Positions 10,472-27,912 of a stretch of DNA of 64,000 bases are shown piece after piece. Below the pieces are notes generated by a model. It ran no database searches and had not been told where the DNA came from. It saw only the letters and a program-made list of their open reading frames with translations. How positions within the stretch are numbered: position 1 is the first letter of the stretch; each line of letters starts with the position of its first letter. The DNA comes from Niallia sp. FSL W8-0635 (GTDB taxonomy: Bacteria; Bacillota; Bacilli; Bacillales; Cytobacillaceae): the NCBI RefSeq assembly GCF_038007965.1, contig NZ_JBBOYD010000002.1, forward strand, positions 124,001 through 188,000, read 5' to 3'. The translations under genes were made by a program, and so were the position numbers.

Positions 10472-10775
10472 CTTAATGAAAAAGTTTGATCAGTATAGCG
10501 TTGTAAAGATAGGGAATATACAACAAACTCTTCAAGAGTATATATATAAATAATTACACTCCTAACAACTTTACAGGACTTAAATAATTAATAGTAATAT
10601 TATACAAATATCTCATTTGAAGAGGAGGATTTGTAGTTAGGAAAATAGAAACATATGCTGTTCCCTAATAACACTATTCATATTGCTAGATGATAAGAGT
10701 AAAACTCTTCCCATATGTACATGCGCCATAAATTTTGAGATAATCTCTACAAATGTATTTTGAGGAGGATTTTTC

Positions 10776-11101: not shown

Positions 11102-11319
11102 AGTGAATGTTGAGCAGCAAAAGGAAGTTTGGATATGAGAAAATCGATCGTTGGATTGGCTACCCTTGGTCAATAACTTCCTAGTTTCTTGTATCTCTAA
11201 AAACTAGATTTAATAATAGAGGTATATATGGTATATTTATTAGTCTTCTTTTGAATAGGAATGTTGCTTTGGAGTATTCCTCAGTTTATAGTCTAAAAAA
11301 ACCTCTCCTAAGAGAGGTC

Positions 11320-11350
11320 AAGCTGTCGAGAAAGTCTCGATAGCTTTTTT
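11320..11350 (+). terminator. Intrinsic terminator-like hairpin
   Basis: AAGCTGTCGAGA (11320-11331) pairs with TCTCGATAGCTT (11335-11346) and is followed by TTTT. Confidence 0.65.
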
Positions 11351-11427
11351 CACAATTTCACTATACACCAGTGGTTCGATAATGTCTTAAAAACCATATG
11401 TTGGGGTCGTGATCAATTAAGATATCC

Positions 11428-11474
11428 AAAACCCCCTTTTTCAAAATCATACTTTTAAAAATAGGGGGTTTTTC
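11428..11474. terminator. Bidirectional terminator-like hairpin
   Basis: AAAACCCCCTTTTT and AAAAATAGGGGGTTTTT form a stem with A- and T-tracts on the two sides, so it could stop transcription from either side. Confidence 0.55.
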
Positions 11475-11940
11475 TACAAGCCGACCTCTCCTAGAGAGGT
11501 TTTTACAATTATGTTTATCTGAAATATTTTTTGGTTGAAATGTAATTTGTTAAATAGAATTTATTCACTTCATTTAAATTTAATTTGGATTAAGTGAAAT
11601 TTGTGATTCAATATTAAATTTCATTTTTTTAATCTTATTATATCAGTGTTTAGTATATATTTTCCCCAAACTTTAATAACATTTAAGAGCACTAATTTAT
11701 AATATGGGAGTTTATAGCTTTGAACTTTTATTCTAATCTGGATATGAGCTTTTTAACTAGGCTTAGATTCCTCGCTGTCTGCAATCTAAGTATGATTTAT
11801 AAGATGTTTGATTTCATCAGGTTACTTCTCTCCAAGTATTGTAATTCTTGATTTTTAACTCAAAATTGAATACCTATAATTATCAGTGTTTTCTAAAGTA
11901 CCTATGGCAATTAATATGAAAGTACAACTAAAATAGTGAA

Positions 11941-12627
11941 TTATTTCTTTGTAGTGTTTAACAATAACTTATTTAGATTCCAATCGATATTACTGTAAGT
12001 AGGTATAAAAGAATATCGCTCACCCCCACTAATATTTTCGCAGGAAGCATGTAGGATTAAGTCGTGAAGAATAATTACATCTCCAGCTTTTACTTCGATA
12101 TTTATAATATTTTCAGGATGCATATTAACTATCACTGATTTTGAAAAGCCATCTGTCGAATCGCCTTTGTGAATCACTTTGTTTTTGTGTGTTCCAGGAA
12201 TAACTTGAAGACAACCATTCTCTTTATTTGCATCATCAAGTGCAATCCAAACTGATACTTTATGACTTCCTTTAAGATATTCCCAATCTTGATGCCAAGG
12301 TGTGCCAAACCGTATGTCAGAGTTTTTATAAACCAATTTATCATCAATAAAAATTAGATTTTTATCATATAATTTCTTTAATATTCTTATTAATTTTATA
12401 TTTTTTGTTATTTTTTCAAAGAGAGGACTTATCTTAGATAACCCAATAAAAACTCCTTCATTTCTTAATTTTTCTTCATCAACCTTGATTCTAGATTTCA
12501 TTTTTTTTTCTTTTATAAGTCGTTTTGCCTCTTCTCTTGCGGTTTGCATTTCTTCTAAATTAAAAATATTTTCTAACACAATATAACCTTTTTTATCAAA
12601 TTCTTCTTTTATTGATATTTTTTCCAT
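11941..12627 (-). CDS. PhyH-type Fe(II)/2-oxoglutarate oxygenase
   Basis: 228 aa of the phytanoyl-CoA dioxygenase superfamily. The iron site is visible: HQDWEY supplies His and Asp, and IILHDLILHAS the distal His; GCLQVIPGTHK is the usual conserved loop, and a downstream GERYSF carries the Arg expected to bind 2-oxoglutarate. These enzymes hydroxylate or otherwise oxidise small molecules and peptides. It is transcribed away from the peptide gene across a 91-base shared control region, which makes it the likely oxidative tailoring enzyme of the cluster. AGGAGG precedes the ATG. The substrate is unknown. Confidence 0.88.
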   Translation of the reverse strand: MEKISIKEEFDKKGYIVLENIFNLEEMQTAREEAKRLIKEKKMKSRIKVDEEKLRNEGVFIGLSKISPLFEKITKNIKLIRILKKLYDKNLIFIDDKLVYKNSDIRFGTPWHQDWEYLKGSHKVSVWIALDDANKENGCLQVIPGTHKNKVIHKGDSTDGFSKSVIVNMHPENIINIEVKAGDVIILHDLILHASCENISGGERYSFIPTYSNIDWNLNKLLLNTTKK

Positions 12628-12718
12628 ATTTTCCTCCTTAAGGTTGAATTGTTATATATAAAATGTTAACATATTATTGTAAATTTTCAAAAAATAAAAA
12701 TGAGAAGGGAAGTTTGTT
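12628..12718. promoter_or_regulatory. Divergent promoter region of the biosynthetic cluster
   Basis: The only space between the oxygenase and the peptide gene. On the + strand, TTGAAT (12644-12649) and TAACAT (12667-12672) are separated by 17 bases, a fair sigma-A match; overlapping AT-rich boxes could serve the opposite strand. GAAGGGAAG precedes the peptide ATG. No operator is evident. Confidence 0.4.
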
Positions 12719-12973
12719 ATGAATCAAATTATTCGTAATACGAATCCACTATTTGCACCATTATTACAGGAATTAGAGAATCAAGAGTTTATAAAACTCT
12801 TTGCAGAAGATCCATACACTGCACTTGAAAAAGTGGGGATAGAAATGGATTTAGCCGAATTCACTGCATATTTAAGCCAAGATAGAGATTTATACGATAG
12901 TATCATTAAAAAAATCTCTACTCAAGTGGATGTTACAAGTATGGATATACCTGCAAGTTCTTGTTGTAGTTAA
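12719..12973 (+). CDS. Putative modified-peptide precursor (84 aa, C-terminal CC)
   Basis: 84 aa. Residues about 18-70 are helical, acidic leader-like sequence (FAEDPYTALEKVGIEMDL, DLYDSIIKKI), and the short tail MDIPASSCCS has the only two cysteines, next to each other, with three serines. The xxDPxxALxxxGI pattern resembles the helical leaders of Nif11/LigA-type ribosomal peptides, but I cannot assign it to one. It is the first gene after the promoter, apart from the enzymes, and is followed by a hairpin that could raise its expression relative to them. The alternative is a small carrier or regulatory protein. Confidence 0.65.
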   Translation: MNQIIRNTNPLFAPLLQELENQEFIKLFAEDPYTALEKVGIEMDLAEFTAYLSQDRDLYDSIIKKISTQVDVTSMDIPASSCCS

Positions 12974-12981
12974 AATTAATT

Positions 12982-13020
12982 ATAGTGACTGACCAAACTA
13001 TTAGCTTGATCAGTCACTAT
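12982..13020 (+). terminator. Hairpin between precursor and biosynthetic genes
   Basis: ATAGTGACTGA (12982-12992) pairs perfectly with TCAGTCACTAT (13010-13020). Only two T follow, so it is probably a leaky terminator or RNA-stabilising stem, giving more precursor than enzyme mRNA. Confidence 0.6.
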
Positions 13021-13037
13021 TTAAGAGGAGAATAAGT

Positions 13038-15155
13038 TTGATAAATTTACTAGAAAATACTAGAAAATTAAATGTTGAAGAAATTGGTAATAAAGCAAAA
13101 AACTTATTTAAGCTATCAAGTTTGAATTTTAATATTCCAGAAGGATTTGTTCTTACAAATAACGATTGTAAGGAAATTATTAATTGTAAAAAGGAAGTAT
13201 TAGAGCAAGTTAATGTAGAAGCCTTAAAAATTTGGTCAGAGGATGGTTTAATTGTTAGATCTTCATCTTCAATAGAAGATAGCCATTATAAGACCATGGC
13301 CGGAAAGTTTTCTACTAAAACTATTAGCACTTTTACAGATTTAATTCCTGCAATTATATCAGTATATAATTCAAGGCTAAACCACCCAATGGGAGTCATA
13401 GTTCAAAGAAAAATTAAAGCTGACTTTTCTGGAGTTGCCTTTTCTTTGGATCCATTGAGAAAGTCTCAAGGTCCAATAATAGAGATAGTTAAAGGTGATG
13501 GTCATAAACTTGTCGGAGGATTGAGTAAACCCTTTCAATATAAAGAAGATAAATGGACAAGTGGGGATTTTTCCATTGATAACGTTGTGTCTGAGTTGAA
13601 AGAATACATGAATTTATTAAAAAATAACTTGCGTTATGAAATTGACGTAGAGTTTTGTATACAGAATAACACTATCTTTTGGTTACAAGTGAGACCTATT
13701 TTGGGAATAAAATCTAATTTTATAATACCCCCAAGTAAAGAGTGGTTCCTTTTAGATCAATGTACCGAACCAGTAACACCTTTAATACAAGATCTTGATC
13801 CAGGAGGACTTTTCAATTCTAATCAATGGTCTACGACTTTCATCAATCAATATCCATATATAAAATTAAAAACTTCAAGTAATAAAACCGATAGTAATGA
13901 ACACAGTTTCAATTGGGACAATATAGAAAAAGAGTATGTGATTAAGTTTGAAAATACTATAAATACAAAATGTGGAAACTTAGAAGAATTATATACTGAA
14001 TTACAAAAGGCAATTAAGAATTTTAAAGAGTTTTTTAATGTTTATATGGATAGAGATTGGATGATCAAACGGAGAAATATTAAAAAAATAATTCTGAATT
14101 TTTTTGATGATATAGGAGTACCAATAGAAAATCAAAATAAGGAATTAGGCATTTTAACATCAAATTTAAATTCTCATACATTTCACAAATCAAGACATTT
14201 GGTACAAATTGCTAAGAATATTCAATTATTAATAAAAAATAATAGTACTAACGAGGAGGAATATCCGCAATTTATTGATGACTTAATTATGAATAGTACT
14301 TCTTTTAAAGATTTTATTAATTTATATGGTGATGAAATACCTCATCCTATGGCTATACATATCGAAACATTAAGAGAAAACCCTCAATATTTAATAAAAA
14401 AAGCTAAAAGACTCCCTATAAAAAATAAAAAAATAGAATCTAAGTGGGAGGATAAATTAGATAAACTCCAACAGAAGTTACCTCTAGAAAAAAAAATGAA
14501 GTTTAGGAATGCTGTATTAGAATATCGAAATCTACTGTTAAGGACTGAAAATGATGATTATGTCCTCCAAAAAGGTGCTGCGTCAGTTAGGAAAGTTATT
14601 CTAGATATTGGCGTTATTCTACATAGGAACGGTTTACTTAATAATAAGCATGATGTATTTTTTTTGAGAAAAATAGAGTTAGAAAAATATATATCTGGAA
14701 ACAGTTCGGAAAATATAGATATATATGACAGAAAAATAGAGTTTGATAAAAATCGTGCTTTAATGCCTAGCACAGCTTTAGATGAAACGAATTTAGAACT
14801 TACAAAAAATCAAAATCTTATCTTAGGTGAATGTGTATCATGGGGCTCAGTTATTGGGAAAGTATTTATAATAGAAAATCCGCTCGATAGAAACAGTTAT
14901 TTAGATATACCGGAAGGTTCTATTATTGTAGCAAAGCAACTAACTCCTCATTTAACCTATAATCTAACTAATTCTTTAGGAATCATTGTAGAAACGGGTG
15001 GATTTCTATCTCATGGAGCAATATTTGCAAGAGAAGAAAATATTCCAGCGATTATAGTTAATACTTCAACTAGAAAACTATTAAAAAACAATGAAACTAT
15101 TGAACTTAATGCAGATAAAGGTTATGTGAAAATTTTAAGAATGAATGGAGATTAA
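13038..15155 (+). CDS. Dikinase-like phosphotransferase (PEP-synthase / rifampin phosphotransferase fold)
   Basis: 705 aa from a TTG with GGAG 8 bases upstream. N-terminal ATP-grasp domain of the PPDK_N type (EIGNKAKNLFKL, IVRSSSSIEDSHYKTMAGKF, VIVQRKIKADFSGVAFSLD). The C-terminal swivelling domain carries the catalytic His in GGFLSHGAIFAREENIPAI. The PEP-binding barrel of true PEP synthase is missing; instead about 350 unfamiliar residues lie between, as in rifampin phosphotransferase, where that part binds the small molecule. Expected chemistry: ATP-driven phosphorylation of the pathway product or precursor through a phosphohistidine. It could be a tailoring or a self-protection step. Confidence 0.8.
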   Translation: MINLLENTRKLNVEEIGNKAKNLFKLSSLNFNIPEGFVLTNNDCKEIINCKKEVLEQVNVEALKIWSEDGLIVRSSSSIEDSHYKTMAGKFSTKTISTFTDLIPAIISVYNSRLNHPMGVIVQRKIKADFSGVAFSLDPLRKSQGPIIEIVKGDGHKLVGGLSKPFQYKEDKWTSGDFSIDNVVSELKEYMNLLKNNLRYEIDVEFCIQNNTIFWLQVRPILGIKSNFIIPPSKEWFLLDQCTEPVTPLIQDLDPGGLFNSNQWSTTFINQYPYIKLKTSSNKTDSNEHSFNWDNIEKEYVIKFENTINTKCGNLEELYTELQKAIKNFKEFFNVYMDRDWMIKRRNIKKIILNFFDDIGVPIENQNKELGILTSNLNSHTFHKSRHLVQIAKNIQLLIKNNSTNEEEYPQFIDDLIMNSTSFKDFINLYGDEIPHPMAIHIETLRENPQYLIKKAKRLPIKNKKIESKWEDKLDKLQQKLPLEKKMKFRNAVLEYRNLLLRTENDDYVLQKGAASVRKVILDIGVILHRNGLLNNKHDVFFLRKIELEKYISGNSSENIDIYDRKIEFDKNRALMPSTALDETNLELTKNQNLILGECVSWGSVIGKVFIIENPLDRNSYLDIPEGSIIVAKQLTPHLTYNLTNSLGIIVETGGFLSHGAIFAREENIPAIIVNTSTRKLLKNNETIELNADKGYVKILRMNGD

Positions 15156-15161
15156 TATGTT

Positions 15162-15956
15162 ATGTTCTCTAAGGCAACAATTGAAGATTATAAAGAAATT
15201 TCGAAATTAGAGATTCCATTTTCATTTGGTAAAAATCTAAAAGAAGAACTAACAAAACCAGATCAGTATCGCTGGATTATCCTTAAGGAAAATTCCAGCA
15301 TACAGGCATTCCATAGAAGCATTCTTTTAGATGGTACTGGTTATCTAGGTGGCATTTTCTCTAAAAAATCAAATCATAAAATATTATATGAGTTGTTGAA
15401 ATATTCAATTGAGGACTTATCAAATTTATCTCCTAACGGACTTATAGCTTGGGACTCTTTTCCAGAAACGGCGAAGTTTACTTTATTAAAAAAATTTGAG
15501 TTTAAAAAAAATATAAAACCGATAATTAGAATTTTTTTTGAGTATAAGTCAGTTGTAGAACTAGTAAAAATTAAAGAAAGTTATTTAGATGAATGGATAG
15601 TACCTACTCAAGATGAATTAAGGAATTTTCTTTTTAATCTTAATTCAAATTTAAAAAATCAAAATTTTATTCAAACTAATTGGTTAATCGGAAGAAAAGC
15701 AGGTGTTAATTATTGCGCTGTATGTTGGTGGAATAATGGTATATTTACGGAGCTATTATTTTCGGTTTCATATGATGCGACTTTAGATATTACTGGATCA
15801 CTGAAGTATATAATTAAGCACACTAATTCGAAAAGACCATTTATACTGAAAATCAATTTAGAAGAAGAGAGGAAAATATCCTTTCTAAAACTACTTAGGT
15901 TTAATCCAAAGACATACAAAGAAGGTTTTTTGAATTTAAAACTTACAAGGGAGTGA
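15162..15956 (+). CDS. GNAT-like protein (possible acyltransferase)
   Basis: 264 aa. Short hydrophobic strands and the layout TIEDYKEISKLE ... GYLGGIFSKKSNHKILYELLKYSIEDL resemble an acetyltransferase (GNAT) fold, possibly a tandem of two half-domains, but no clear acyl-CoA P-loop (RxxGxG/A) is visible, so activity is uncertain. It follows the dikinase gene by 6 bases and precedes the radical SAM gene by 6. A GNAT beside an acyl ligase and a carrier protein would fit transfer of an acyl group to the peptide; that is inference. Confidence 0.45.
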   Translation: MFSKATIEDYKEISKLEIPFSFGKNLKEELTKPDQYRWIILKENSSIQAFHRSILLDGTGYLGGIFSKKSNHKILYELLKYSIEDLSNLSPNGLIAWDSFPETAKFTLLKKFEFKKNIKPIIRIFFEYKSVVELVKIKESYLDEWIVPTQDELRNFLFNLNSNLKNQNFIQTNWLIGRKAGVNYCAVCWWNNGIFTELLFSVSYDATLDITGSLKYIIKHTNSKRPFILKINLEEERKISFLKLLRFNPKTYKEGFLNLKLTRE

Positions 15957-15962
15957 GGATTT

Positions 15963-17306
15963 TTGAGAAATTATAAAATGACCTTAATAAACCTAAATTC
16001 TCTACCCACAATGGACTTTCATCCTGTTTTTCCTATTGGTGCAGTATATGTCAAAAGTTATGTAAAGCAACTTGGCGTTGATATTGAATTAATAGACTTT
16101 AAAGAGAATCCTGAAGAATATTTGAATTTAAGTTTTCTAAACAGTCATATTGATTGTTTAGCCTTTTCCATTAGAAATGTTGATTCAATGGAATTGAACA
16201 GTAAGTATTATTTAAAGTATTATAAAGACTTTATGGATAAAATTATACCCATAGCAAAAAAAAGAAACCCTAATATGCGTACATTAATCGGTGGCGGAGG
16301 CTATGCAGTTTATTCTGAAGGCCTAAAAAAATATTTACCTTTTCAATATGGAATTAAAGGAAATATAGAAGAAGAAATTTTTGATTTTTTATCTGATCAT
16401 ATTCAGTCACTAGGAGAAGATATTAGATTAATTCCTAATCATTCTCTTTTTTCATTAGATTTTACTAACTCTTTAGTACAAACTTACAAGGATATTGGTG
16501 TTAAGCAAATTGGACTACCTACTCGCTGTGGTGGTAGATGTCCAATGAAATGTGTTTATTGTTCTTATGGAAAAATAGATAACAAAACAAATATAACTAG
16601 ACCTTTAAAACTGCTTAAAGAAGATATTCTAAATTTGTACGATATGGGTATAAGAGAAATCTTTTTTACAGATTCACTTTTCAACATTAACTTAGACCAC
16701 TCTAAATCAATTTGTAATCTATTAATCGATCTAAATTTAGATGGATTTCGATGGTCTGCCTATGCTAAGCCCACTGTAAATGAAGAGTTTGTTGCGTTAG
16801 CTGCTCAATCAGGATGTAAAGAATTAATGGTTTCTTTTGATACATTCTCCCCAAGTATGTTAATAAAATTGAAAAAAGGATTCAACCTAAATATTGCTAA
16901 AACCTTTATTGATAATTGTCGAAAATACAATGTAACACTCCTAGGAATGTTATTATTCGGTGGTCCCGAAGAAAATGAAGAGTCTATTAAAGAAACATGC
17001 AAATTCACCAATGAGAATTTTAAAAAAGGAGAAATTTTCTTTTCCTTCGGAATGAGAGTACTACCTGGCAGTCAACTTGCTATTCTATCTGGAATACCTG
17101 AAAAAGAGATGATTACCCCTTTATTCTGGCCATTTGATGAAAGTTGTTTTGACTATGCAATAAAGCATTTTGATGCACAGTTTTTAAAATATACAACTTT
17201 AGGAAGAATCAGTAACTGGCGAAAGGCATATAGAGAAATGAGAGAATATAGTTATCCTGGTACAAATTCATTTGTATTGCAGGGGAAAAATCAAATTTTA
17301 GGTTGA
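15963..17306 (+). CDS. B12-binding-type radical SAM enzyme
   Basis: 447 aa. N-terminal Rossmann-like domain as in cobalamin-binding radical SAM proteins (MDFHPVFPIGAVYVKSYVK, MRTLIGGGGYAVYSEG), then the radical SAM core with Cx3Cx2C in RCPMKCVYCSYGK, which binds the 4Fe-4S cluster. No DxHxxG cobalamin ligand is seen, so B12 binding would be base-off or absent. Related enzymes methylate unactivated carbons or form new bonds on peptides. The start is TTG at 15963 because GAGTGAGG lies just upstream; ATG at 15978 is too far from it. The substrate is unknown. Confidence 0.82.
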   Translation: MRNYKMTLINLNSLPTMDFHPVFPIGAVYVKSYVKQLGVDIELIDFKENPEEYLNLSFLNSHIDCLAFSIRNVDSMELNSKYYLKYYKDFMDKIIPIAKKRNPNMRTLIGGGGYAVYSEGLKKYLPFQYGIKGNIEEEIFDFLSDHIQSLGEDIRLIPNHSLFSLDFTNSLVQTYKDIGVKQIGLPTRCGGRCPMKCVYCSYGKIDNKTNITRPLKLLKEDILNLYDMGIREIFFTDSLFNINLDHSKSICNLLIDLNLDGFRWSAYAKPTVNEEFVALAAQSGCKELMVSFDTFSPSMLIKLKKGFNLNIAKTFIDNCRKYNVTLLGMLLFGGPEENEESIKETCKFTNENFKKGEIFFSFGMRVLPGSQLAILSGIPEKEMITPLFWPFDESCFDYAIKHFDAQFLKYTTLGRISNWRKAYREMREYSYPGTNSFVLQGKNQILG

Positions 17307-17315
17307 GGTTATAAT

Positions 17316-18728
17316 ATGATAAGTAAATTGAATGATTATTTAAAGGATTACGCGAAAAAAACACCGTCAAAAATAGCTTTAGCTGATAGAAAAAACGTAG
17401 TCTCGTATAGTGACTTTTATCATTTAGTAAATAAATTGGCATATTTATTAACTAAATATGTTTTAGATGAAAATACGGAAATCGGTATAAGTATACCCAA
17501 AAATATTAATTTACCGATAGTTTATTTAGGAGTATTTAGATGTGGATTTTCTGCTATACCATTAGAAGTAAATATAAGTCAATCAAAATTACTAATAATA
17601 GGCAAAGTTACACGAATGAAATATATAATTAAATTTATAAACGAGAAGTTAGTTCTATATAGATTAGATAGTAAATTAGATGTTATTGAAGAGTTCGAAT
17701 TAAATTTTAAAGATATTGAACTTGATATTAAGGAGTATATAGAGTGTGAAGAAGAGCAATCACGTTATTTTAATTTAACATCTGGTTCTACAGGGACTCC
17801 AAAGATCTTTTCTACCAAGACTACACAAGTGGTCTATAACGCCATTAATGTTAATTTATCATTACCAATAGAGTTAAATGGAAGTTACATGTGTCTTTTC
17901 TCAGAAAGTATGCATCCACATGAATTATTTGTTAAACCATTGGTTGCTGGAGAGTGTTGCGTTCTCTGTACAACAAATGAATATCAACATATAAATGAAT
18001 TAATTGAAAGATTTAATATAAAAAGTTTATTAGCAACCCCTAATCTTTATAAGTATTTAATGTCAATTATAAAAAAAGAAAATTGGAATAACATAAAACA
18101 CCTACAAGTAGGAGGAGAAAAGGTAGAATATCAATTTAGAGAAACTTTCTTTAATACTACAGGAAAAAAACTAATTTCAGCTTGGGGTAGTACAGAGACT
18201 ACAGGGATTGTTTTCTATACTCCTATAGAATGGGCTTTGTCAAAAAAAGTGGTCTTAGGCGCATGTATTGGTGGATATAAATGTAAAATTAGTAGTGAAG
18301 GTGAGCTTTTAATAAAAGGTTATGCTTGTATAGAACAATACTACAATTCGGAGGAAATTATTGTTGATAACGAAGGATATTATAATACAGGGGATTTAGT
18401 ATATAAAGATGACAATGAAATTTTTTATTATGAAGGGAGAAAAGATAACCAAGTTAAAGTTGGGGGAAGATTTATTTCTTTATTCCAGTTAGAACAAGAA
18501 TTATTAACGGTTCAGGCTATAAAGGAAATAACGATTGAAGTAAGTTCAAGTAATGATAATATAGTTATTTTTTTAGTAGTAACCTCTGAGTTTAATGAAT
18601 TAGAATTTAGAAAACTTCTTGTGAAAAAAGTTAATAATATAGCATTCAAAATTTGTTACCTAAGTGAATTACCAAGGATGGAAAATGGCAAACTAAATAA
18701 AAGTAAAATAAAATTGTTAGTGGAGTGA
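17316..18728 (+). CDS. AMP-forming acyl/aminoacyl ligase (adenylation domain)
   Basis: 470 aa, a stand-alone ANL-family enzyme. Core motifs: NLTSGSTGTPKIF (P-loop), SAWGSTETTG, YYNTGDLVY, GRKDNQVKVGGRFIS and the catalytic-lysine tail RMENGKLNKSK. It should activate a carboxylic or amino acid as the adenylate and load it on the carrier protein encoded next. The carrier frame follows directly in the same reading frame after the TGA stop. Substrate specificity cannot be read with confidence. Confidence 0.88.
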   Translation: MISKLNDYLKDYAKKTPSKIALADRKNVVSYSDFYHLVNKLAYLLTKYVLDENTEIGISIPKNINLPIVYLGVFRCGFSAIPLEVNISQSKLLIIGKVTRMKYIIKFINEKLVLYRLDSKLDVIEEFELNFKDIELDIKEYIECEEEQSRYFNLTSGSTGTPKIFSTKTTQVVYNAINVNLSLPIELNGSYMCLFSESMHPHELFVKPLVAGECCVLCTTNEYQHINELIERFNIKSLLATPNLYKYLMSIIKKENWNNIKHLQVGGEKVEYQFRETFFNTTGKKLISAWGSTETTGIVFYTPIEWALSKKVVLGACIGGYKCKISSEGELLIKGYACIEQYYNSEEIIVDNEGYYNTGDLVYKDDNEIFYYEGRKDNQVKVGGRFISLFQLEQELLTVQAIKEITIEVSSSNDNIVIFLVVTSEFNELEFRKLLVKKVNNIAFKICYLSELPRMENGKLNKSKIKLLVE

Positions 18729-18734
18729 ATTAAA

Positions 18735-18980
18735 ATAGATAAAAATAAACTTATTTCAGTTATAGAATTTTATTCAAATCTCCCCATAAGTCAAGCTATA
18801 AATATTGATGATTTTGAATTATTAGGCTTAGATAGTTTAGCTAGATTAGGTTTATTATGTGAAATCGAAGAAATTCTCGGAGTAAATTTATCTAGTGAGG
18901 GATTCGAAAATATTAGAAGAATTTCAGATATACGAGAGATAATCGATATACTTGGTTATGAAAGAGTGAAAAAGCTATGA
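18735..18980 (+). CDS. Acyl/peptidyl carrier protein with ATA as apparent start
   Basis: 81 codons ending in TGA that overlaps the next ATG (ATGA). The 4'-phosphopantetheine site is clear: ELLGLDSLARLGLLCEIEE, with helix 2 following. There is no ATG, GTG or TTG in this frame before the active-site serine. ATA at 18735 sits 9 bases after GGAG (18722-18725) and gives a normal carrier-protein beginning (xDKNKLISVIEFY). The frame is the same as the ligase, directly after its TGA, so a readthrough fusion is the other reading. The partner is expected to be the upstream ligase. Confidence 0.75.
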   Translation: MDKNKLISVIEFYSNLPISQAINIDDFELLGLDSLARLGLLCEIEEILGVNLSSEGFENIRRISDIREIIDILGYERVKKL

Positions 18981-20884
18981 ATATTATTAGATACAATTTT
19001 AATTCATTTAAAAAAATCCTATTAACGCATTACAATTTGATACAACCTAAAAAACCAGTAATTAGAGAATGGAATAAAGAACTTTTGTTTATAACAAAAG
19101 TTCCTCCCACTATTGGGGGAGTATCCACTCAGGAGTATTGGCGGATTAGAGAGTTAGCAAATAGAGGATATAAGGTGAGAGTGGTTACAAATACTAATGA
19201 AGAAATCGGGAATCCTCGTGCAGTCAATTATAGTATATCTGATTTAGAATTGCTCGATTATAAAAACCCAATATCTGGTGGCTTTCTAAAGTTTTATTAT
19301 ACTGAATCCTATGACCATACGAGGCATAAACATTTTCCTGAAGACAAAATGTCTCAATCCAAATTAGTTGGGCTCTCTCTTTATGTAATTGATAAGTATA
19401 AAAGTTCAGTTATATTAAGTGGATACTTAGAACCTTATGGTGCAGCTGCTAGCGAAGTAAGTAATTTAACTGGAGTACCTATTTATCAATATAGTGCAGG
19501 GAGTGATTTGGAAAGATTAACAACTTCTCCAGAACTAGCAATCCGCTATGAATATATATTTCAAAACGCAGACTTAGTAGGTACATCCTGGGAAAATTTT
19601 TCTAAATTTTTAAGCTTAAGTATTCCCTTGCAAAAGTTAACTTTAACTCCGCCACCAATAATGCTTTATGAGAAGGAAAGGAAAAAAGAAAATAGATATA
19701 TATTAAAAAACAAATCGCTAACTATTGGGATTTTCGGAAAATTAAACAATTATAAATCATTAAGGGAATTATCAAATGTCATTATTGACTTAAATAAAAA
19801 TGGTAAGAATGTTTGTTTAAAGGCTAGCTTTACTTATAATGATGATATTGACGATGAAACAAAGAAATTACTGAATTTTATGGAGAGTAAAGGTTATTTA
19901 GCAAATGTTTCCCCGTTTAAACCTTGGGAAATTAACCAATTTCTTAATGACTGTGATCTAATTTCCTTGTTAGAAAGGAATTTCAAGGTATCAATTCATA
20001 CACCAATCACATTTTATGAAGCAATGAGTGCGGGTAAGTTGGCATTAATTTCAGAGGAATTTTTTCTTAAGTTACAAGATAGGGAGAAGTACAGCGAAAA
20101 TAATTATCTATTAATTAAGGACAATAACTTCTCCCAAAACTTATATAAGGCAATTGAAAAATTTATAGATAACCCTCCAAATTTTACGAATGATAATAAT
20201 TTTGATTTTAATTTAAATAATTCTATAGATGATTATATTAGAAATATTGAATATTTAGGACAGAATGTTTCTAAAATTAATAATAGAAATATATTATTTG
20301 AAAATATAGTAATCATTTGTTCGTATTTTCCTTATACGATCTCCTATATTTTAGATAAATACGAAACATTTGATTATTTATTAATAAGTGATTACCATTC
20401 TGAATATTCCAATGTTATAAAAAGTGGTTACAATAGAATTTGTAAAATAATAAAAAGGATAAAAGACCCAATTGCATCTGAGCTTTTAAAAATAGAATAT
20501 AGTAAAATTATAGCGTTGAAGAGTTTTAAGAGACAAATATCCTCTTATTCAAATAGAAGAATTAATTTTTCAATTGAAAATACCGTTATACGAATTTGCT
20601 CTAAACCAGTAATTTTAAGTACTAATATCGATCTAAAATACTTATTTAGTAGTATAAAGGATAAAGAAATAAAAATAAAAAAGCATAAAAAGACATTTTA
20701 TTATTTAATTACTGCACAAACTCCTTTAAACAGTAAATATATATTAATAGATGAAGACTTAAAAGATAACATTGAAAGACTATTACAAGATTATCCAGAT
20801 TTAACTAAAGATTACGGCAAATCGATAGATTTTCTAGAAAGTCATGGATTTTTAACTAGAGATATAGATATGGGGAGGAAATAA
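18977..20884 (+). CDS. GT-B glycosyltransferase with extra C-terminal region
   Basis: 635 aa. Residues about 30-400 look like a GT4-type retaining glycosyltransferase: FITKVPPTIGGVSTQEYWRIRELANRGYKVRVVTN at the N terminus (glycine-rich acceptor loop) and IHTPITFYEAMSAGKLALI as the donor-site E-containing motif. The last 200 residues are not typical; the end (IERLLQDYPDL ... SIDFLESHGFL) has the helix-turn look of a small winged-helix or PqqD-type peptide-binding unit, a weak suggestion. It is coupled to the carrier gene by ATGA. Probably glycosylates the pathway product. Confidence 0.72.
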   Translation: MNIIRYNFNSFKKILLTHYNLIQPKKPVIREWNKELLFITKVPPTIGGVSTQEYWRIRELANRGYKVRVVTNTNEEIGNPRAVNYSISDLELLDYKNPISGGFLKFYYTESYDHTRHKHFPEDKMSQSKLVGLSLYVIDKYKSSVILSGYLEPYGAAASEVSNLTGVPIYQYSAGSDLERLTTSPELAIRYEYIFQNADLVGTSWENFSKFLSLSIPLQKLTLTPPPIMLYEKERKKENRYILKNKSLTIGIFGKLNNYKSLRELSNVIIDLNKNGKNVCLKASFTYNDDIDDETKKLLNFMESKGYLANVSPFKPWEINQFLNDCDLISLLERNFKVSIHTPITFYEAMSAGKLALISEEFFLKLQDREKYSENNYLLIKDNNFSQNLYKAIEKFIDNPPNFTNDNNFDFNLNNSIDDYIRNIEYLGQNVSKINNRNILFENIVIICSYFPYTISYILDKYETFDYLLISDYHSEYSNVIKSGYNRICKIIKRIKDPIASELLKIEYSKIIALKSFKRQISSYSNRRINFSIENTVIRICSKPVILSTNIDLKYLFSSIKDKEIKIKKHKKTFYYLITAQTPLNSKYILIDEDLKDNIERLLQDYPDLTKDYGKSIDFLESHGFLTRDIDMGRK

Positions 20885-20885
20885 A

Positions 20886-21473
20886 ATGATGGATATTGGG
20901 TTTAATAGAGACAGAATATCAAAAAGGACTAATGAATACTTGAACGGTATTTTTGAAGATGAATTATTTACTAAATTATCTCAACGGATTTTGTATTTAA
21001 AAAAGGAAAAACAAAATATATGTTTAATTAATCAACAAATATTAGAATTAAAGAGATTTCTTTTACTAAAAGCATTAGTACCAAGTCTTGAAATGTATAG
21101 TCCATCAATAGATAATTTATGGCACGAATCGATTCTATTTACTAAAAATTATAACGAATTTTGTCATAAACTTAAAGGAGATTTTATTCATCATAATCCA
21201 AATTTACATTCGACTGTTAATATAATAGGTCGCTATTGGTTTGACTGGTTGTATCTATTTCTTTTTAAACCAAATCAAATAGGTTGGAAATCTTGGAACG
21301 GATTTATGTTACAAAAACTTAGTGAATCACAAATAAAAGCTTCAAGTTATAACTTAATTTTAGAAATTAAAAATACAAATTTAAAAGGGGATCAGAAATA
21401 CCATTTAACAGAAATATCAAAATTATTAATTGAAAAGTTAAAAGATTCGAATAGTGAAATGAGCATAAACTAA
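20886..21473 (+). CDS. GRDP-like (glycine-rich domain-containing protein-like) protein
   Basis: 195 aa. The core LKRFLLLKALVPSLEMYSPS ... DNLWHESILFTKNYNEFCHKLKG ... FIHHNP matches the WH..I..T..Y..FC....G..I.H.P signature of PF07173-type domains, known from plants and scattered bacteria and of uncertain biochemical role. The conserved His, Tyr and Cys could bind a metal. It starts right after the glycosyltransferase stop and abuts the next gene, so it belongs to the operon. Confidence 0.65.
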   Translation: MMDIGFNRDRISKRTNEYLNGIFEDELFTKLSQRILYLKKEKQNICLINQQILELKRFLLLKALVPSLEMYSPSIDNLWHESILFTKNYNEFCHKLKGDFIHHNPNLHSTVNIIGRYWFDWLYLFLFKPNQIGWKSWNGFMLQKLSESQIKASSYNLILEIKNTNLKGDQKYHLTEISKLLIEKLKDSNSEMSIN

Positions 21474-22466
21474 ATGAATTCTATAAATATTTTGAATCTA
21501 ACTCAATTATATTATGGACCAAAAAGAGTCTTTTTTGTAGATAATAATATTGAAGTACAAACCAATTTACCGAATTTATTTATGCATTTCTCGCATTATT
21601 TTAACTATGTTTATAACATAAGTTATAACAATACACTTAATGAAAATAGGTTTAAATGTCATATATTATATAAAAATGATTTTGAATTAATTAATTTAAT
21701 CAAATTGTTAGAGAAGGATGGTAAAAGAAAAGGTAGTAAAAAAATTAATAGTTTGGATTTTTCTATTATTGAAATAAATAAAAAAAAAATCTATATTGAT
21801 TCGAAAACTTTAATTATATTCCATGAAGATAATAGGACAAATGAACTTTTTATTATAGGACCCTACGATTTTATTTTTCCTTTTTCTAGGATGTATATCA
21901 AAGAACATATTCTATATAGTAAAGAACTCGCTAATCATTGGTATTTAATAAGTTCTTTGGCTTTTAAAAATAAACTAAATGAAAATATATTGTTATTAGG
22001 CAAAGTAAACAATAAAATTAAGAAAAATTTATTGGAGTATCACCTTTCTGGGGAAATATGTATTCTTTCGAGTAGATTTACTGCTATAAAAAAATATGAT
22101 AATACAGTAATGTTTAAAAGGTTACCAGAGCTATTTACTATAGAAAGAAATAAAATTGAAAACTATGAACATCGAAGAAATTTGAAAAAAAGTATTTTTA
22201 ATACAAAAAGACATTATAGGTTTAATTTGAATCCTAATAATAACTATATAAATAAAGAAAAGTTAAATTTTATATCTTTAAGTCCCTTATTAGACTATAA
22301 GAATCCCCAAAGTCTAAGTTTAAAAAATAAAATTAACATATTGAATAATTATATAGAGTTTAAAGGTCGAAAAAGCCACTTAATTAATCCTCAAATAGAT
22401 GAAAAAAATCTTAGAGATAGTATAAGCACCTTGGCAAAATTAAACTTCTATAAACTTATGGATTGA
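21474..22466 (+). CDS. Unrecognised protein, possibly a degenerate HprK-like fold
   Basis: 330 aa, very rich in Asn, Lys and Ile. The order of segments (TLIIFHEDNRTNELFIIGPY, a helix, ENILLLGKVNNKIKKNLLEYHL, then strands and FKRLPELFTI) recalls the HPr-kinase-like proteins often found in ribosomal peptide clusters, but a Walker A glycine loop is missing, so it cannot be called a kinase. It starts at the codon after the previous stop and overlaps the ABC gene frame. Function unknown. Confidence 0.55.
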   Translation: MNSINILNLTQLYYGPKRVFFVDNNIEVQTNLPNLFMHFSHYFNYVYNISYNNTLNENRFKCHILYKNDFELINLIKLLEKDGKRKGSKKINSLDFSIIEINKKKIYIDSKTLIIFHEDNRTNELFIIGPYDFIFPFSRMYIKEHILYSKELANHWYLISSLAFKNKLNENILLLGKVNNKIKKNLLEYHLSGEICILSSRFTAIKKYDNTVMFKRLPELFTIERNKIENYEHRRNLKKSIFNTKRHYRFNLNPNNNYINKEKLNFISLSPLLDYKNPQSLSLKNKINILNNYIEFKGRKSHLINPQIDEKNLRDSISTLAKLNFYKLMD

Positions 22467-22477
22467 AGGAATTGGAA

Positions 22478-24178
22478 ATGAATAAAAACTTTTTCAGAAA
22501 TATTAAAGTATTATTTTGGATACTTGAGTATTTAAGACCGTACAAGAATAAGGTAATCTTATTTATTTTGCTTGGGCTATTTTCTTTATCAATTGAACTT
22601 ATTATACCAAAGTCAATTCAATATTTAATAGATCATATTATACCTTCACAAAGAAAGGCTTCTTTTGTTTATTTTGGATGTGCATTTGTGGTTTTTTCAA
22701 TAGTTTCATTGGTTTCAAAATGTAAAACAGAAATATATAAACGTCAAATTCAAGAATTAGCTATAAAAGATCTTCGAAGTGACTTCTTAAGCTATTTAAG
22801 TTCTTTAAATTTTAAAGAACTTGATAATATGAAAAGTGGCGATCTTTATAAAAAATGTATTAATGATATTAATTATATTCAAAAAGTTTATCGTTATTAT
22901 TTTCCGACAATAGTTCAAACTTCAATTTTTTCTTTAATAGCTATTACTTTAATGCTTTATACTAATTGGATTTTAACATTATGTACACTTCCATTTCTTT
23001 TACTATATTTAATAATTGGTCCTTCTATTGAAATTAAAGCAGATATATCTTCAAAGAACTTTTCATCCTCAGAAGGTAGTTACATAAATGCATTAGAAGA
23101 AACTGTTTCATCTATTAGTAATATTAAAATGTATGGTGGATTCGGATGGATACAAAAATTTCTATTAAATGAATTAGAAGTAAATAATAAGTGGAATGAA
23201 AAGAGATATTTTTACGGATTCTTAAGAAGTAGTATAAGAAGAACTATATTCAGAATTGGATCAATTTTTATATTAGCTATTGGTATCTACTTAGTTAGAA
23301 ATGAATCTTTAACACCAGGTGAGTTTGTCTCATTCCTTCTTATATATTTTAGTTCAATGTGGAGAATTACTAGAATAATTACTATTTGGAATGAAGTAAT
23401 ATTGTTAATGAGACAGGTAGATGAGCTTTATGTAATGATGAAGAAAAGTGTACCAATTAAACGTGATAAATATGGGGATAAGGATGTAACATCTGGCAGT
23501 ATTTTAATTAGTGATTTGAATTTTTCATACAGTAATAAAGAAGTTCTTAAGGAAATTCATTTGAATATAGAATCCGGAGAAAAAATATTAATAGTAGGGA
23601 AAAGTGGAACAGGAAAATCCACTTTATTGAAGATTATTGCAGGATTATACCCAATTAATAAAGGCATAATTAAGGTTGGAAATTATAATATTGACGAAAT
23701 TTCCTGGAATAATTTAAGAGAAAACATTACATTTATGTCTCAAGATGTTCTTCTATTTAATGAGTCTTTTATTGAGAATATTGTTATAGGTACCAATAAG
23801 GAAAACAATTTAGATAGCGTAAAATTAGCTGCTAGAAAAGCCGAATTACATAATGAAATTATGCAAAAAGAGAAAAATTACCATTTTGTAATTGGTGATG
23901 GAGGAAAGTTTTTATCTGGAGGACAACGCCAGCGCCTATCTATAGCTAGGAATCTATTGAAAAATCCAAAAATAATTTTGTTAGATGAACCTACTTCGTC
24001 TTTAGATAAGGTGAATACAGATAAAATATTTAAAACAATATTTAAGGAATTTGAAGGAAAAACAATATTAGTTGTTTCTCACGATAAATTACCTAAAGTT
24101 CAATTCGATAGAGTGTTCGAAATAAAGGAAAAAAAAATTATAGAATTAAGATCATTAGTAGGTGAAGTACATGATTAG
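22478..24178 (+). CDS. ABC exporter, fused permease-ATPase (first)
   Basis: 566 aa from the ATG at 22478; the frame is open back to a TTG at 22463. About six membrane helices in the first 300 residues, then an ATPase domain with Walker A VGKSGTGKSTLLK, signature LSGGQRQRLSIA, Walker B IILLDEPTSSLD and a switch His in VVSHDK. It has no N-terminal C39 peptidase, so a leader would have to be removed by another protease. It overlaps the second exporter gene and probably forms a heterodimer with it. Confidence 0.9.
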   Translation: MNKNFFRNIKVLFWILEYLRPYKNKVILFILLGLFSLSIELIIPKSIQYLIDHIIPSQRKASFVYFGCAFVVFSIVSLVSKCKTEIYKRQIQELAIKDLRSDFLSYLSSLNFKELDNMKSGDLYKKCINDINYIQKVYRYYFPTIVQTSIFSLIAITLMLYTNWILTLCTLPFLLLYLIIGPSIEIKADISSKNFSSSEGSYINALEETVSSISNIKMYGGFGWIQKFLLNELEVNNKWNEKRYFYGFLRSSIRRTIFRIGSIFILAIGIYLVRNESLTPGEFVSFLLIYFSSMWRITRIITIWNEVILLMRQVDELYVMMKKSVPIKRDKYGDKDVTSGSILISDLNFSYSNKEVLKEIHLNIESGEKILIVGKSGTGKSTLLKIIAGLYPINKGIIKVGNYNIDEISWNNLRENITFMSQDVLLFNESFIENIVIGTNKENNLDSVKLAARKAELHNEIMQKEKNYHFVIGDGGKFLSGGQRQRLSIARNLLKNPKIILLDEPTSSLDKVNTDKIFKTIFKEFEGKTILVVSHDKLPKVQFDRVFEIKEKKIIELRSLVGEVHD

Positions 24179-25826
24179 TTATTTACGAGTTTTATTACTC
24201 AATAGTAAAAAAGGGAGATTCTATTTCTTTTTACTGCTTTTCTTTATCCTTATTGAAGTCTCTATCTTAATTCTATCAATGCAATTTCAAAAACTTATAA
24301 TTGATCATATTCTGAATGATAACCTCAATCATTCAATTGCTATCCTTTTACTATTAGGCATTTTTTATGTTTTTCATGCAATTCTAAGCGTGATAAACCC
24401 ATGGTTACAATCTAAAACAAGTAGTTTAATTAAGAGTAGTGTAATTGAAAAATATTTTAAGAATTTTTGCGACGATAATGAAATTAGCATGGATTTTACT
24501 AGTAAACATTCAGGAGAATATATTCATTTTTTGAATGACGAAGTCACATTAGTAGTTAATTGGGTTTCAGGTGATATTCCCGATTTCTTCAAGTCCATTG
24601 TTACGGCATTAATGATTAGCATTTTTGTCCTGAGTATAAATATTTATTTATTTATTTTTATATTCTTCTTTGCTGTATATAGTGCTTTTTTAAATAAAAG
24701 TTTTTCTGCTAAAAGAAAAAAAATATTCTCTACTGTATTTAAGGAAAAGAAAAAATTAAATGTTTTTTTGAAGGATTCTATTTATTCTCTTAAAGAAATA
24801 ATCATAATGAATAATAAAGAATGGGTAAACAAAAAATTCCAAAATTACTATAAAGATTATATGCGTATTTCATTTAAAGAAGGTAGTATAATAGCAAAAC
24901 AGATAGGTATTCAAGAAAGTATATCTCTAATAATGATATTTATTATAGTAATGTTTGGTGGATATTTGGCTTTTGAAAATAAAATTACAATAGGTGGTAT
25001 TGTTATTTTATATCAACTTATATTAGAGCTGAATGAATCATATCAAAACACTTTTAAATATTTTTTACAGCTCAAGTCCAAACTTGGAATTGTTGAAAAT
25101 GTAGCTAAAATTTATTCGAAATTAGAAGTGAAAAACTCTCAAGAATTTGAAGATTTAAAAAACAAAGAATCATTTTCTATAAAATCCATTGAATTTAATA
25201 ATATTGTTTATAGTTATGAAAATCAAACTCATAAAGTGATTGAAGGAATTACATTTAATATTAAAAGTGGAAAAAATCTGTATTATCTTATTGGCCGTAG
25301 CGGCTCTGGTAAAACAACATTAATTAATCTAATGTGCAAATTTATCCAGCCCAAACATGGGCAAATTTTCTTAAATGAAATTGATTTGCAAACCATATCA
25401 CAGAAGCTAATAATAAAAAAAATAAGTGTTGTCTTCCAACATCCCATAATTTATACGGCAACCATTAAAGATAATATATTAATGGGTGAAAATGCAGATG
25501 TTAAAGATGATAGTATTATTGAAGTTTTAAAAGCTGTAGACTTTTATGAAGATATAGTTAATATGTCAGAAGGAATTAATACAATAATTAAGAGCCGCGG
25601 CTCAAATCTTTCGGGTGGACAAAAACAAAAGATAGCAATAGCCAGAGCATTAATAAGAAATACAGATGTATTAATACTGGATGAAGCAACATCAGCTATC
25701 GATTTTACTTCTGAGAGACATATTATAAATCAAATTAGAAATTTAAGATTGAATAAAATAACAATACTAATAACACACAGAATTGAGGATATTTCACATC
25801 AGGATAAAAAAATTATTTTAAATTAA
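24171..25826 (+). CDS. ABC exporter, fused permease-ATPase (second)
   Basis: 551 aa from ATG 24171, inside the end of the previous gene. An N-terminal transmembrane region is followed by Walker A IGRSGSGKTTLIN, signature LSGGQKQKIAIA, Walker B VLILDEATSAID and LITHRIED. Both consensus nucleotide sites seem intact in the pair. It is the last gene of the cluster and is followed by a terminator at 25913. Confidence 0.9.
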   Translation: MISYLRVLLLNSKKGRFYFFLLLFFILIEVSILILSMQFQKLIIDHILNDNLNHSIAILLLLGIFYVFHAILSVINPWLQSKTSSLIKSSVIEKYFKNFCDDNEISMDFTSKHSGEYIHFLNDEVTLVVNWVSGDIPDFFKSIVTALMISIFVLSINIYLFIFIFFFAVYSAFLNKSFSAKRKKIFSTVFKEKKKLNVFLKDSIYSLKEIIIMNNKEWVNKKFQNYYKDYMRISFKEGSIIAKQIGIQESISLIMIFIIVMFGGYLAFENKITIGGIVILYQLILELNESYQNTFKYFLQLKSKLGIVENVAKIYSKLEVKNSQEFEDLKNKESFSIKSIEFNNIVYSYENQTHKVIEGITFNIKSGKNLYYLIGRSGSGKTTLINLMCKFIQPKHGQIFLNEIDLQTISQKLIIKKISVVFQHPIIYTATIKDNILMGENADVKDDSIIEVLKAVDFYEDIVNMSEGINTIIKSRGSNLSGGQKQKIAIARALIRNTDVLILDEATSAIDFTSERHIINQIRNLRLNKITILITHRIEDISHQDKKIILN

Positions 25827-25912
25827 TCTACTTAAATACAAAATAATATAAAATGAAAGGAAATAAAATTAGCTGGAAGAAGTAATTAAAAATAATTGTT
25901 TATTGCAAAATA

Positions 25913-25955
25913 AAAGTGCAGAGCTTTTGCAATGCAGGGTCCTGCACTTTATTTT
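25913..25955 (+). terminator. Terminator at the end of the biosynthetic operon
   Basis: AAAGTGCAG (25913-25921) pairs with CTGCACTTT (25942-25950), followed by ATTTTAT. Confidence 0.65.
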
Positions 25956-26037
25956 ATAAGTGCATAAAATAAGACTTTCCTGTCACCCCAAATCCCTCTA
26001 CTGTAATGGTGTCGAATCATTTACAGAGTGGAGGAAT

Positions 26038-26277
26038 ATGAAAGGATACTAGCTTCATTGTATCAAAAACTTGAGAAACAACAAGGGTTTATCTATATCT
26101 AAGATCCAAAAAATACTTGGTATTAACTGGAGAACAGCTAAGAAGTATGGGGATGATGAACAATTGCCTCAATCTAAAATTGATTACAGCCGGGTGATTT
26201 TACCACCCTTGCCATGTTTTTTACCAGTCTTCACCAATAAATGTACCACACAATGCCAATTCGTTTACCAAGCATAG
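26038..26277 (+). pseudogene. IS21-family IstA N-terminal remnant
   Basis: YERILASLYQKL in one frame and, after a shift, KGLSISKIQKILGINWRTAKKY make the helix-turn-helix start of an IstA-type transposase, followed by unrelated codons to TAG. No catalytic domain remains. A terminator (AACCCTACAG/CTGTAGGG, 26281-26318) follows. Confidence 0.65.
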
Positions 26278-26562
26278 AAAAACCCTACAGATTACTAGCT
26301 TAATAAACTGTAGGGCTTTTCTTTTACTGACTGTTGCTAATTAGAATTATTTTTAAAATACTCTCTAATCATTTTTTTGCCCCTCAAATATGTCCTGTTC
26401 ATTCCATTCCTGTGGAAAAGGTTCCTTTCCATAGATATCCAACTGCTTTTAGTTCCTGGGGAAATGGGTACCAGTTTTTGTATCCGACATAGTAGAAGTA
26501 TTCCTCTAACTTCCGTAGTTCTTTTTTAGTCATTACTGCCATATTAGAGTGCTCTACCTAGT

Positions 26563-27164
26563 CCATGGCGCTCACGCATGGATAATTCGATCTAAAATAG
26601 CTTCTGCTATCGTTTCATTCCCTAATCTCATATGCATCCTCTAGGATCAATTTGCGAACAGAAGATAGTTGAAGCTACTTTATGGCGAGATTCTGCGATT
26701 TCTAGTAAGATTGCTGCTTCATCCGTTGATAAATCTGTCAGTAACCATCCATCCAAAATAAGTAAATCGACCTTCGTGTATTTTTTGATTAATTTACGAT
26801 AACTTCCGTCCGCAACTAATTTTGCTAGTGACAGTTCATCTAGTAACTCTGGCAAACGGATGTATTTAATTTTATAGAATTGACGACAAGCAGATACTCC
26901 GAATGCACTAGGTAAATAAGATTTACCTGAACCAGTGATTATTGCAGATGAAATGAGCCACTTATGCGGAGCTTTGAGCCAGTCATTGCGGAATGGAGAG
27001 CCATTATAATTAGAATCACGAAAGCCTCTTGTATAATTATGTTGCATGCAATTAAGCATGACACTAATATACGGGAGGTTTTTATTAAGGTTAATTGTCG
27101 TAAGATTCTGTAACTTCATTTTAAAGGAATCAGTCAGAGGACCATTAGTTCTAGTACTGGACAT
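26563..27164 (-). pseudogene. IS21-family IstB remnant
   Basis: On the reverse strand, SSAIITGSGKSYLPSAFG (altered Walker A), CRQFYKIKYIRLPELLDELS, VDLLILDGWLLTDLS (altered Walker B) and STIFCSQIDP follow the IstB pattern, then NETIAEAILDRIIHA before stops. The P-loop is damaged and the N-terminal part is scrambled. A 47-codon frame just downstream (26542 to 26399, MTKKELRKLEEYFYYVGYKN) is probably part of the same debris. Confidence 0.65.
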
Positions 27165-27838: not shown

Positions 27839-27912
27839 AATCGAACAACTTTATTATCAGATTCGAAGATAAGAATAATTATATTGATACAAAATTAACC
27901 ACTTTAAATAAT

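Follow-up and report, generated by a model that had tools for sequence, protein, structure and literature searches.

Among ribosomally synthesized and post-translationally modified peptides (RiPPs), phosphorylated lasso peptides carry their phosphate on a serine, which is the C-terminal serine in the earlier reports summarized in the part of the source cited here (PMC10368454). In the corresponding part of a second source, the selidamides, goadvionins, lipoavitides and microvionin are described as RiPP classes lipidated by GNAT-type enzymes (PMC13060382). Here we describe a cluster of twelve genes from Niallia sp. FSL W8-0635 that would combine such modifications on one small peptide. The cluster occupies positions 11941-25826 of the window, by which we mean the whole stretch of 64,000 bases that was analyzed (bases 124001-188000 of the 445,863-base contig C2, in a genome of 5.14 Mb and three contigs). 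We read it as a RiPP-like pathway of previously unreported composition on a plasmid-like contig, and put the probability of this reading at about one half. The first-pass annotation of this DNA had assigned the gene set to no described class. Word searches of open-licence full texts indeed gave no paper on the enzyme combination, and we count this silence as weak evidence of novelty.

Organization and enzyme content of the cluster

Gene content, order and packing were read directly from the DNA. An oxygenase gene on the minus strand stands at one end, and divergent from it run eleven plus-strand genes, from the gene of an 84-aa peptide to those of two ABC half-transporters. Counted from the peptide gene, the gaps are 64, 6, 6, 9, 0, -4, 1, 0, -4 and -17 bases, and each of the nine junctions from the second gene onward, that of an Rph-like phosphotransferase, is at most 9 bases long or an overlap. 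The open reading frames (ORFs) and the measured gaps agree with the twelve genes, order, strands and packing annotated earlier. The accompanying claim of a single tight run holds for the eleven same-strand genes; the oxygenase gene is divergent and is therefore not part of their shared transcript. None of the twelve listed frames contains an internal stop codon, and G+C content declines over the three codon positions in 7 of 7 genes checked. A compact biosynthetic operon with a small peptide gene at its head and exporters at its end is well supported. For the promoter that had been placed in front of the peptide gene, site counts give no support: promoter-like sites in 11500-26200 are not above chance (87 found, 99.5 expected), and terminator-like sites in the same region are not clearly so (5 found, 3.4 expected).

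The peptide gene (12719..12973, plus strand) was identified as an ORF whose product, a candidate precursor, has weak leader similarity. The C-terminal SSCCS reported earlier is present as part of the end PASSCCS, and positions 82-83 hold the only two cysteines. The gene is small and adjoins genes of modifying enzymes, as is looked for in a RiPP locus. Between it and the enzyme genes lies a hairpin (12982..13020, no strand assigned). An 81-base stretch folds here at -19 kcal/mol, against a shuffle mean of -11.4 (z -3.0; 1 of 200 shuffles was equally stable), and the 18-pair stem appears in the pattern listing as terminator-like on the minus strand. The hairpin is probably of the attenuator or RNA-processing type. 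A hairpin that separates the precursor from the enzymes is a common RiPP arrangement.

The first enzyme of the run (13038..15155, plus strand) was identified by Pfam, by alignment and by a PDB profile as an Rph-like phosphotransferase. Its ATP-binding domain scored 70.2 bits (cut-off 27) and its phospho-histidine domain 56 bits (cut-off 23.1), and a hit for a pyruvate-barrel domain is absent. The protein had been named a dikinase; both domains were confirmed, but the closest solved chains point to the rifampin phosphotransferase type. These chains, 5hv2, 5fbs and 5hv1 (E 4e-57 to 1e-56 over positions 314-715 of a 13-row profile), carry the PDB name phosphoenolpyruvate synthase; we take them to be the Listeria rifampin phosphotransferase. 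Rifampin phosphotransferase is an antibiotic-inactivating enzyme that phosphorylates rifampin. Residues K19, R74, E205, Q217, R219 and H659, presumably of the ATP site and the catalytic center, are conserved without exception in the 13 rows, as would fit an Rph-like enzyme that is kept active. The protein scored below the curated cut-offs of NF041857 (Rph; 82 bits, cut-off 999) and of the PigC family (97.8 bits, cut-off 1300), and phosphotransfer is predicted from family resemblance only.

Three consecutive genes encode a radical SAM enzyme, an acyl ligase and a carrier, and for all three the earlier calls were borne out by Pfam profiles above cut-off. The B12-type radical SAM enzyme (15963..17306, plus strand; PF04055, 64.1 bits, cut-off 29.5) has CxxxCxxC at residues 193-200 and a weak B12 domain (26.0 bits, cut-off 32.1). 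It is followed by an AMP-forming acyl or aminoacyl ligase, an adenylation protein (17316..18728, plus strand; PF00501, E 6.3e-32, 111.3 bits, cut-off 29.9), and by a phosphopantetheine carrier protein (18729..18980, plus strand; PF00550, 25.5 bits, cut-off 20.8). The carrier shares the frame of the ligase and is separated from it only by an in-frame TGA (window 18726-18980). No ATG, GTG or TTG stands before its DSL motif, and a GGAG precedes a possible ATT or ATA start; the carrier would be made either from such a start or by read-through of the TGA. Both the TGA and the carrier's first codons recur unchanged in a second genome, G010, whose locus L002 is identical over window 14463-18803.

The divergent gene (11941..12627, minus strand) encodes a PhyH-type Fe(II)/2-oxoglutarate oxygenase (PF05721, E 2.4e-30, 106.8 bits, cut-off 22), with HxD at 112-114 and a distal His193, in agreement with the first-pass annotation. 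At the opposite end, the two exporters also stand as annotated. Profile searches found membrane and ATPase domains in half-transporter 1 (22463..24178, plus strand), with no peptidase domain among the best 25 families listed, and likewise in half-transporter 2 (24162..25826, plus strand), again without a peptidase domain. Domain families were hence observed for seven proteins, namely the oxygenase, the Rph-like protein, the radical SAM enzyme, the ligase, the carrier and the two ABC half-transporters.

The gene at 18977..20884 (plus strand) encodes a GT4-like glycosyltransferase, called from weak Pfam matches and from relatives, that is extended by a C-terminal part of some 200 aa. Relatives in Agrobacterium and Rhizobium lend the earlier call weak support (24% identity to two glycosyltransferases in the alignment), and its Pfam scores stayed below the cut-offs. 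The C-terminal part matched no family above cut-off. A PqqD-type RiPP recognition element (RRE) was considered for this part and rejected on the same ground, and the PqqD profile finds none in the window. Next follows a 195-aa protein (20886..21473, plus strand) without the Cys-rich tail of many relatives, for which we adopt, as an assumption, the label GRDP-like of the first-pass annotation. A match to an Agrobacterium ORF (28% over 79 aa) and a shared pattern D..WH....T..Y..FC speak for relatedness; against the label stands that no Pfam hit was obtained.

Two proteins gave less. The 264-aa protein (15162..15956, plus strand) had been called a GNAT, and no profile or fold match above chance supports this: Pfam and NCBIfam gave no hit, matches in PHROGs and PDB were at chance level, and the hhalign probability was 0.3%. 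The route of acyl transfer first proposed, via ligase, carrier and GNAT, accordingly keeps its ligase and carrier families, while its GNAT is a call that no tool supports. The 264-aa protein was also considered as a sister of a GNAT-like ORF that lies behind an Rph-like gene at another locus (L051), and no similarity was found. For the 330-aa orphan protein (21474..22466, plus strand) the protein database gave a single match, an identical fragment of 226 aa. An assignment as HprK-like peptide kinase was rejected, as the Hpr_kinase_C profile finds nothing in the cluster; in the own genome this profile marks two places, both on contig C1, one over cut-off and one at chance level. Single-sequence structure models of the 264-aa and 330-aa proteins had a predicted local distance difference test score (pLDDT) of 36 and were not used.

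The proposed peptide pathway and its alternatives

We infer every substrate of the pathway from the families and the gene order. The hairpin directly behind the peptide gene would cause the peptide to be made in excess over the enzymes. Its acidic N-terminal part may act as a recognition segment, and the tail PASSCCS would be the part that is modified. Judging from the reaction type of its family, the Rph-like enzyme would pass a phosphoryl group from ATP to its own histidine and on to a hydroxyl, most likely that of a tail serine. The ligase would activate a carboxylic acid and load it onto the carrier, and the radical SAM enzyme would alter the acyl group on the carrier, or else the peptide itself. 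The acyl group might then be moved to the peptide by the 264-aa protein or by another one. A sugar would be added by the glycosyltransferase, with the GRDP-like protein as putative substrate presenter, a role we treat as a lead. The genes of the two half-transporters have an overlap of 17 bases, and the proteins would form one heterodimeric exporter; removal of the leader would fall to a host protease.

In favor of the RiPP-like reading speak the order and packing of the genes, the hairpin, the enzyme families, the six invariant residues of the Rph-like rows, the Cys-tailed GRDP-like ORFs directly upstream of related glycosyltransferases on three plasmid records (see below), the G+C content of the cluster (27.1%, versus 31.8% for the window), and the weak match of the peptide to the NHLP-type leader family TIGR04509 (16.6 bits, cut-off 34). 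Other observations weigh against it. No leader family scored above cut-off in the peptide, and no peptidase domain is among the listed Pfam hits of the twelve cluster proteins. Many RiPPs use host proteases, so the lack of a peptidase does not exclude a RiPP. With the PqqD profile, three places in the own genome scored below threshold, and none lay in the window or cluster; divergent RREs easily escape profile searches. The unsupported GNAT call belongs here as well, as does the best NCBIfam match of the radical SAM enzyme, the lipid-pathway family TIGR04072 (155.7 bits, below the cut-off of 360). The GRDP-like protein of the window has no Cys tail, the CCS-tailed peptide being a separate gene, and 5 of the 12 plasmid loci with GRDP-like genes that were opened (L015, L016, L054, L055 and L058; see below) show, next to that gene, no annotated glycosyltransferase, oxygenase or radical SAM gene and no separate ORF with a Cys tail. 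In the genus, the peptide is found in 2 of 13 genomes, in near-identical copies. Listings place the identical peptide on 39 contigs and the Rph-like protein on 2; short, fragmentary contigs would explain this imbalance, and so would a peptide gene that spreads on its own. Finally, the searches that were run found no second independent cluster.

In the searches run, the cluster was found only in the window and, as a near-identical copy, in Bacillus sp. B1-b2, where locus L003 matches in 15,651 of 15,652 bases and covers window 9501-25152, ending 674 bases before the cluster end. The locus of G010, the second genome of the genus with the peptide, matches in 4,341 of 4,341 bases, and G010 and the B1-b2 record are very likely one assembly. 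The copies are near-identical and therefore represent one lineage, without material for co-variation; co-occurring neighbors in other genomes, by which the first-pass annotation would have had the cluster checked, did not turn up as an independent second case. Among 5.8 billion proteins the homologues of the peptide were only itself and two partial matches (4 candidates), and neither the protein database nor the genome scans run gave divergent relatives of peptide or cluster. Homologue scans returned 3 loci on the genome contigs, 1 of 398 genomes of the class sample (the own genome) and 3 of 394 in one family sample; another family sample gave 0 of 23 genomes and was uninformative. The glycosyltransferase was found in 1 of 299 genomes of the order sample, again the own genome. 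Plasmid searches gave no match for the radical SAM enzyme (E 1e-20), the Rph-like protein (1e-30), the 264-aa protein (1e-3) or the 330-aa protein (10).

Somewhat unlikely in our view, and the best of the alternatives, is that the peptide acts as scaffold or helper. The product would then be a small acylated, glycosylated and phosphorylated molecule from the ligase-carrier branch, with no peptide atoms or with only a released tail residue. The ligase, carrier and radical SAM genes stand together, as this would have it, and in a phylum sample (2 of 388 genomes) the only relative of the radical SAM enzyme besides itself is a TIGR04072 member (518 bits, cut-off 360). At the locus of this relative (L060), carrier, ketosynthase-like and ammonia-lyase-like ORFs were seen by eye. 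A genome scan of a smaller sample gave 2 of 41 genomes, the own genome included. Since the nearest family and the only phylum-sample relative are both of the lipid type, the substrate of the radical SAM enzyme may be an acyl group held by the carrier rather than the peptide. The lack of a peptidase and of a recognized leader family also speaks for a helper. A helper is harder to reconcile with a dedicated small gene that has its own hairpin at the operon head, the usual place of a RiPP precursor, and with a tail that holds two adjacent cysteines and three serines.

Relatives of the Rph-like protein raise another possibility, which we regard as unlikely: the enzyme and the transporters would serve self-protection, the enzyme phosphorylating a finished antibiotic inside the cell. 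This is compatible with the RiPP-like reading, so the odds given to the readings do not sum to one. A protein search that scored the best 7,993 candidates gave at least 12 other full-length relatives (P0005-P0016, 32-41% identical) among the best 120 of 153 hits; after these, identity falls to 35%, over 74% of the length, or lower. At five loci with relatives at 32-34% (Longirhabdus L004, the Paenibacillus metagenome-assembled genome L005, and L051-L053), none of the other cluster proteins outside the ABC pair found a match (tblastn, E 1e-3, with the rows of the two ABC transporters left out). By eye, GNAT-like ORFs adjoin the Rph-like gene in L051-L053, and ABC-transporter-like ORFs lie near it in L051 and L053. 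In the 6.9-kb locus L005 (197-3496), the Rph-like gene lies directly 3' of an ORF with a histidine kinase/gyrase B/HSP90-type ATPase domain (34.6 bits, cut-off 26.4; helix-turn-helix hits just sub-threshold); the pair may link a drug sensor to an enzyme that inactivates the drug. This setting suggests that stand-alone Rph-like genes are drug-response genes, and self-protection is raised here because of it. In the cluster, however, the Rph-like gene is the first enzyme gene behind the peptide and lies inside the operon, and the contexts described are those of relatives at 32-34%, not of the closer P0005-P0008 (38-41%), among which are proteins of Bacillus sp. E(2018) and Psychrobacillus sp. FSL H8-0510.

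Highly unlikely is that the island does not work, being in decay or only recently put together. The lack of a normal start codon in the carrier gene, which follows an in-frame TGA, the 330-aa protein without relatives found, and the IS21-type genes and direct repeat around the island could be taken as signs of this. Against it stand twelve frames free of stops, the fall in GC over the codon positions of seven genes, a second strain of nearly the same sequence (1 mismatch in 15,652 bases) and the possible ATT or ATA starts of the carrier, with a GGAG before them.

GRDP-like proteins and cysteine tails

Beyond the RiPP-like reading of this one cluster, we propose with considerable doubt that GRDP-like proteins mark an unrecognized type of ribosomal peptide pathway: the domain would present a cysteine tail to a glycosyltransferase or an oxygenase before export. 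The tail would be fused to the domain in Rhizobium, Agrobacterium and an E. coli plasmid, and supplied in trans in the window and perhaps in Streptomyces sp. NBC_01136; the window would add acylation, phosphotransfer and radical chemistry.

A plasmid search at E 1e-5 found a single relative of the window's glycosyltransferase, from Agrobacterium, with 24% identity over residues 29-366. Its gene follows two tandem GRDP-like ORFs (200 and 198 aa) and is itself followed by an ABC transporter (L012 10710-15055), and the GRDP-like ORFs have tails such as CKGCSACSSCGGGGSCTVH. With the Rhizobium glycosyltransferase as query, three plasmid records were found. A Cys-tailed GRDP-like ORF lies directly upstream in 3 of 3, which ties this type of glycosyltransferase to Cys-tailed ORFs. 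The records come from two strains of one species and from Agrobacterium and amount to two independent intact cases; in the R602sp record the GRDP-like ORF is broken by a stop and a frame change, and the glycosyltransferase is annotated in two pieces. In Rhizobium gallicum, the Cys-tailed GRDP-like ORF before a GT4-like glycosyltransferase lies in a nif region (L014 7947-9925 and L061 3878-5851).

The E. coli plasmid pHUSEC41-3 (7.9 kb, mobilizable) carries a GRDP-like ORF, an ABC transporter and a JmjC_2 oxygenase (L013 391-3592). The tail of this ORF, read in one record, is CGCSGKGCGAGCSCNSR, and the ORF stands before the ABC transporter and the JmjC-type oxygenase. At 99% identity or more, its body was found on 25 plasmid records of E. 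coli, in alignments that, in the rows listed and with pHUSEC41-3 included, stop at residue 207 of 227 and leave the tail outside. Judged by its sequence, the locus looks like an exported peptide system. The GRDP-like protein of Streptomyces sp. NBC_01136 has no Cys tail and lies near a separate Cys-tailed ORF, a split as in the window.

At least three cysteines within the last 45 residues were counted in 22 of the 27 GRDP-like ORFs readable at 30 loci, the window's own included. When the 12 plasmid loci were opened, a glycosyltransferase adjoined in three (L012, L014, L061), an annotated oxygenase or cupin stood in the gene run in two (L013, L057), a radical SAM gene lay about 1 kb upstream in L017, and L056 held a separate Cys-tailed ORF. 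The domain alone was rejected as a RiPP mark, being too widespread: it occurs in 47 of 398 genomes of the class and mostly in longer proteins, with 47 of 52 matches in open frames of 295-473 aa. Word searches of open-licence full texts returned no paper naming a GRDP-like Cys-tail system with a glycosyltransferase or with an ABC transporter and JmjC oxygenase.

Genomic setting and comparison with known systems

Contig C2 is most likely a plasmid. We read it so because a Niallia circulans plasmid matches parts of the cluster's flanks at 96-97% (7% of window 1-25000, 51% of 25700-35000) and because a Rep3 initiator gene in the window is preceded by an array of 43-base repeats. This tandem array, with a spacing of about 43 bases, spans window 32103-32827 directly 5' of the Rep3 gene, and its repeats are probably the iterons of a plasmid origin. 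A direct repeat (window 5256-7175 and 29276-31077, units 89-99% identical and about 24 kb apart) encloses the cluster island together with IS21-type genes, of which one is IstB by Pfam and an istAB pair was seen by eye. At window 2292-4639, two adjacent minus-strand ORFs match the model of the anti-phage protein Ppl; they cover model parts 39-311 and 715-835 of 894, and the gene looks broken.

Should the peptide prove to be the substrate, acyl, sugar and phosphoryl groups would sit together on one short ribosomal tail, attached by an enzyme set that we did not find reported together and that includes an Rph-type phosphotransferase. GRDP-like domains with Cys-tailed ORFs beside tailoring and export genes, seen in several phyla, may moreover offer a search handle for exported peptides, and one such candidate group sits on small E. 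coli plasmids.

To the GNAT-lipidated RiPPs, as the cited part of the source presents them (PMC13060382), the cluster is alike in having a gene-encoded peptide and a supply of acyl groups, and, if confirmed, an acyltransferase. It differs in that its twelve proteins gave no lanthipeptide-synthetase hit and its GNAT was not confirmed, in its ligase with a free-standing carrier, and in the extra Rph-like protein, glycosyltransferase and radical SAM enzyme. With the lasso peptide kinases it would share phosphate on serine, C-terminal in the earlier reports that the cited part of the source mentions (PMC10368454), whereas the cluster gave no hit for a lasso cyclase or protease, would use an Rph-like phosphotransferase and is left unmatched by the HprK profile. 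Rph and the prodigiosin ligase PigC are similar in combining ATP-binding and phospho-histidine domains with no pyruvate-barrel hit, but the window protein scores far below the cut-offs of both families. The B12 radical SAM family TIGR04072 is the closest in NCBIfam; the window enzyme, in contrast, stays below its cut-off, and the cluster has no ketosynthase hit. The GRDP-like Cys-tail loci resemble the window in the related glycosyltransferase beside a GRDP-like protein (Rhizobium, Agrobacterium), in a cysteine-containing tail and, in Agrobacterium and E. coli, in an ABC transporter. There, however, the tail is fused to the GRDP-like domain, whereas in the window the two are encoded by separate genes.

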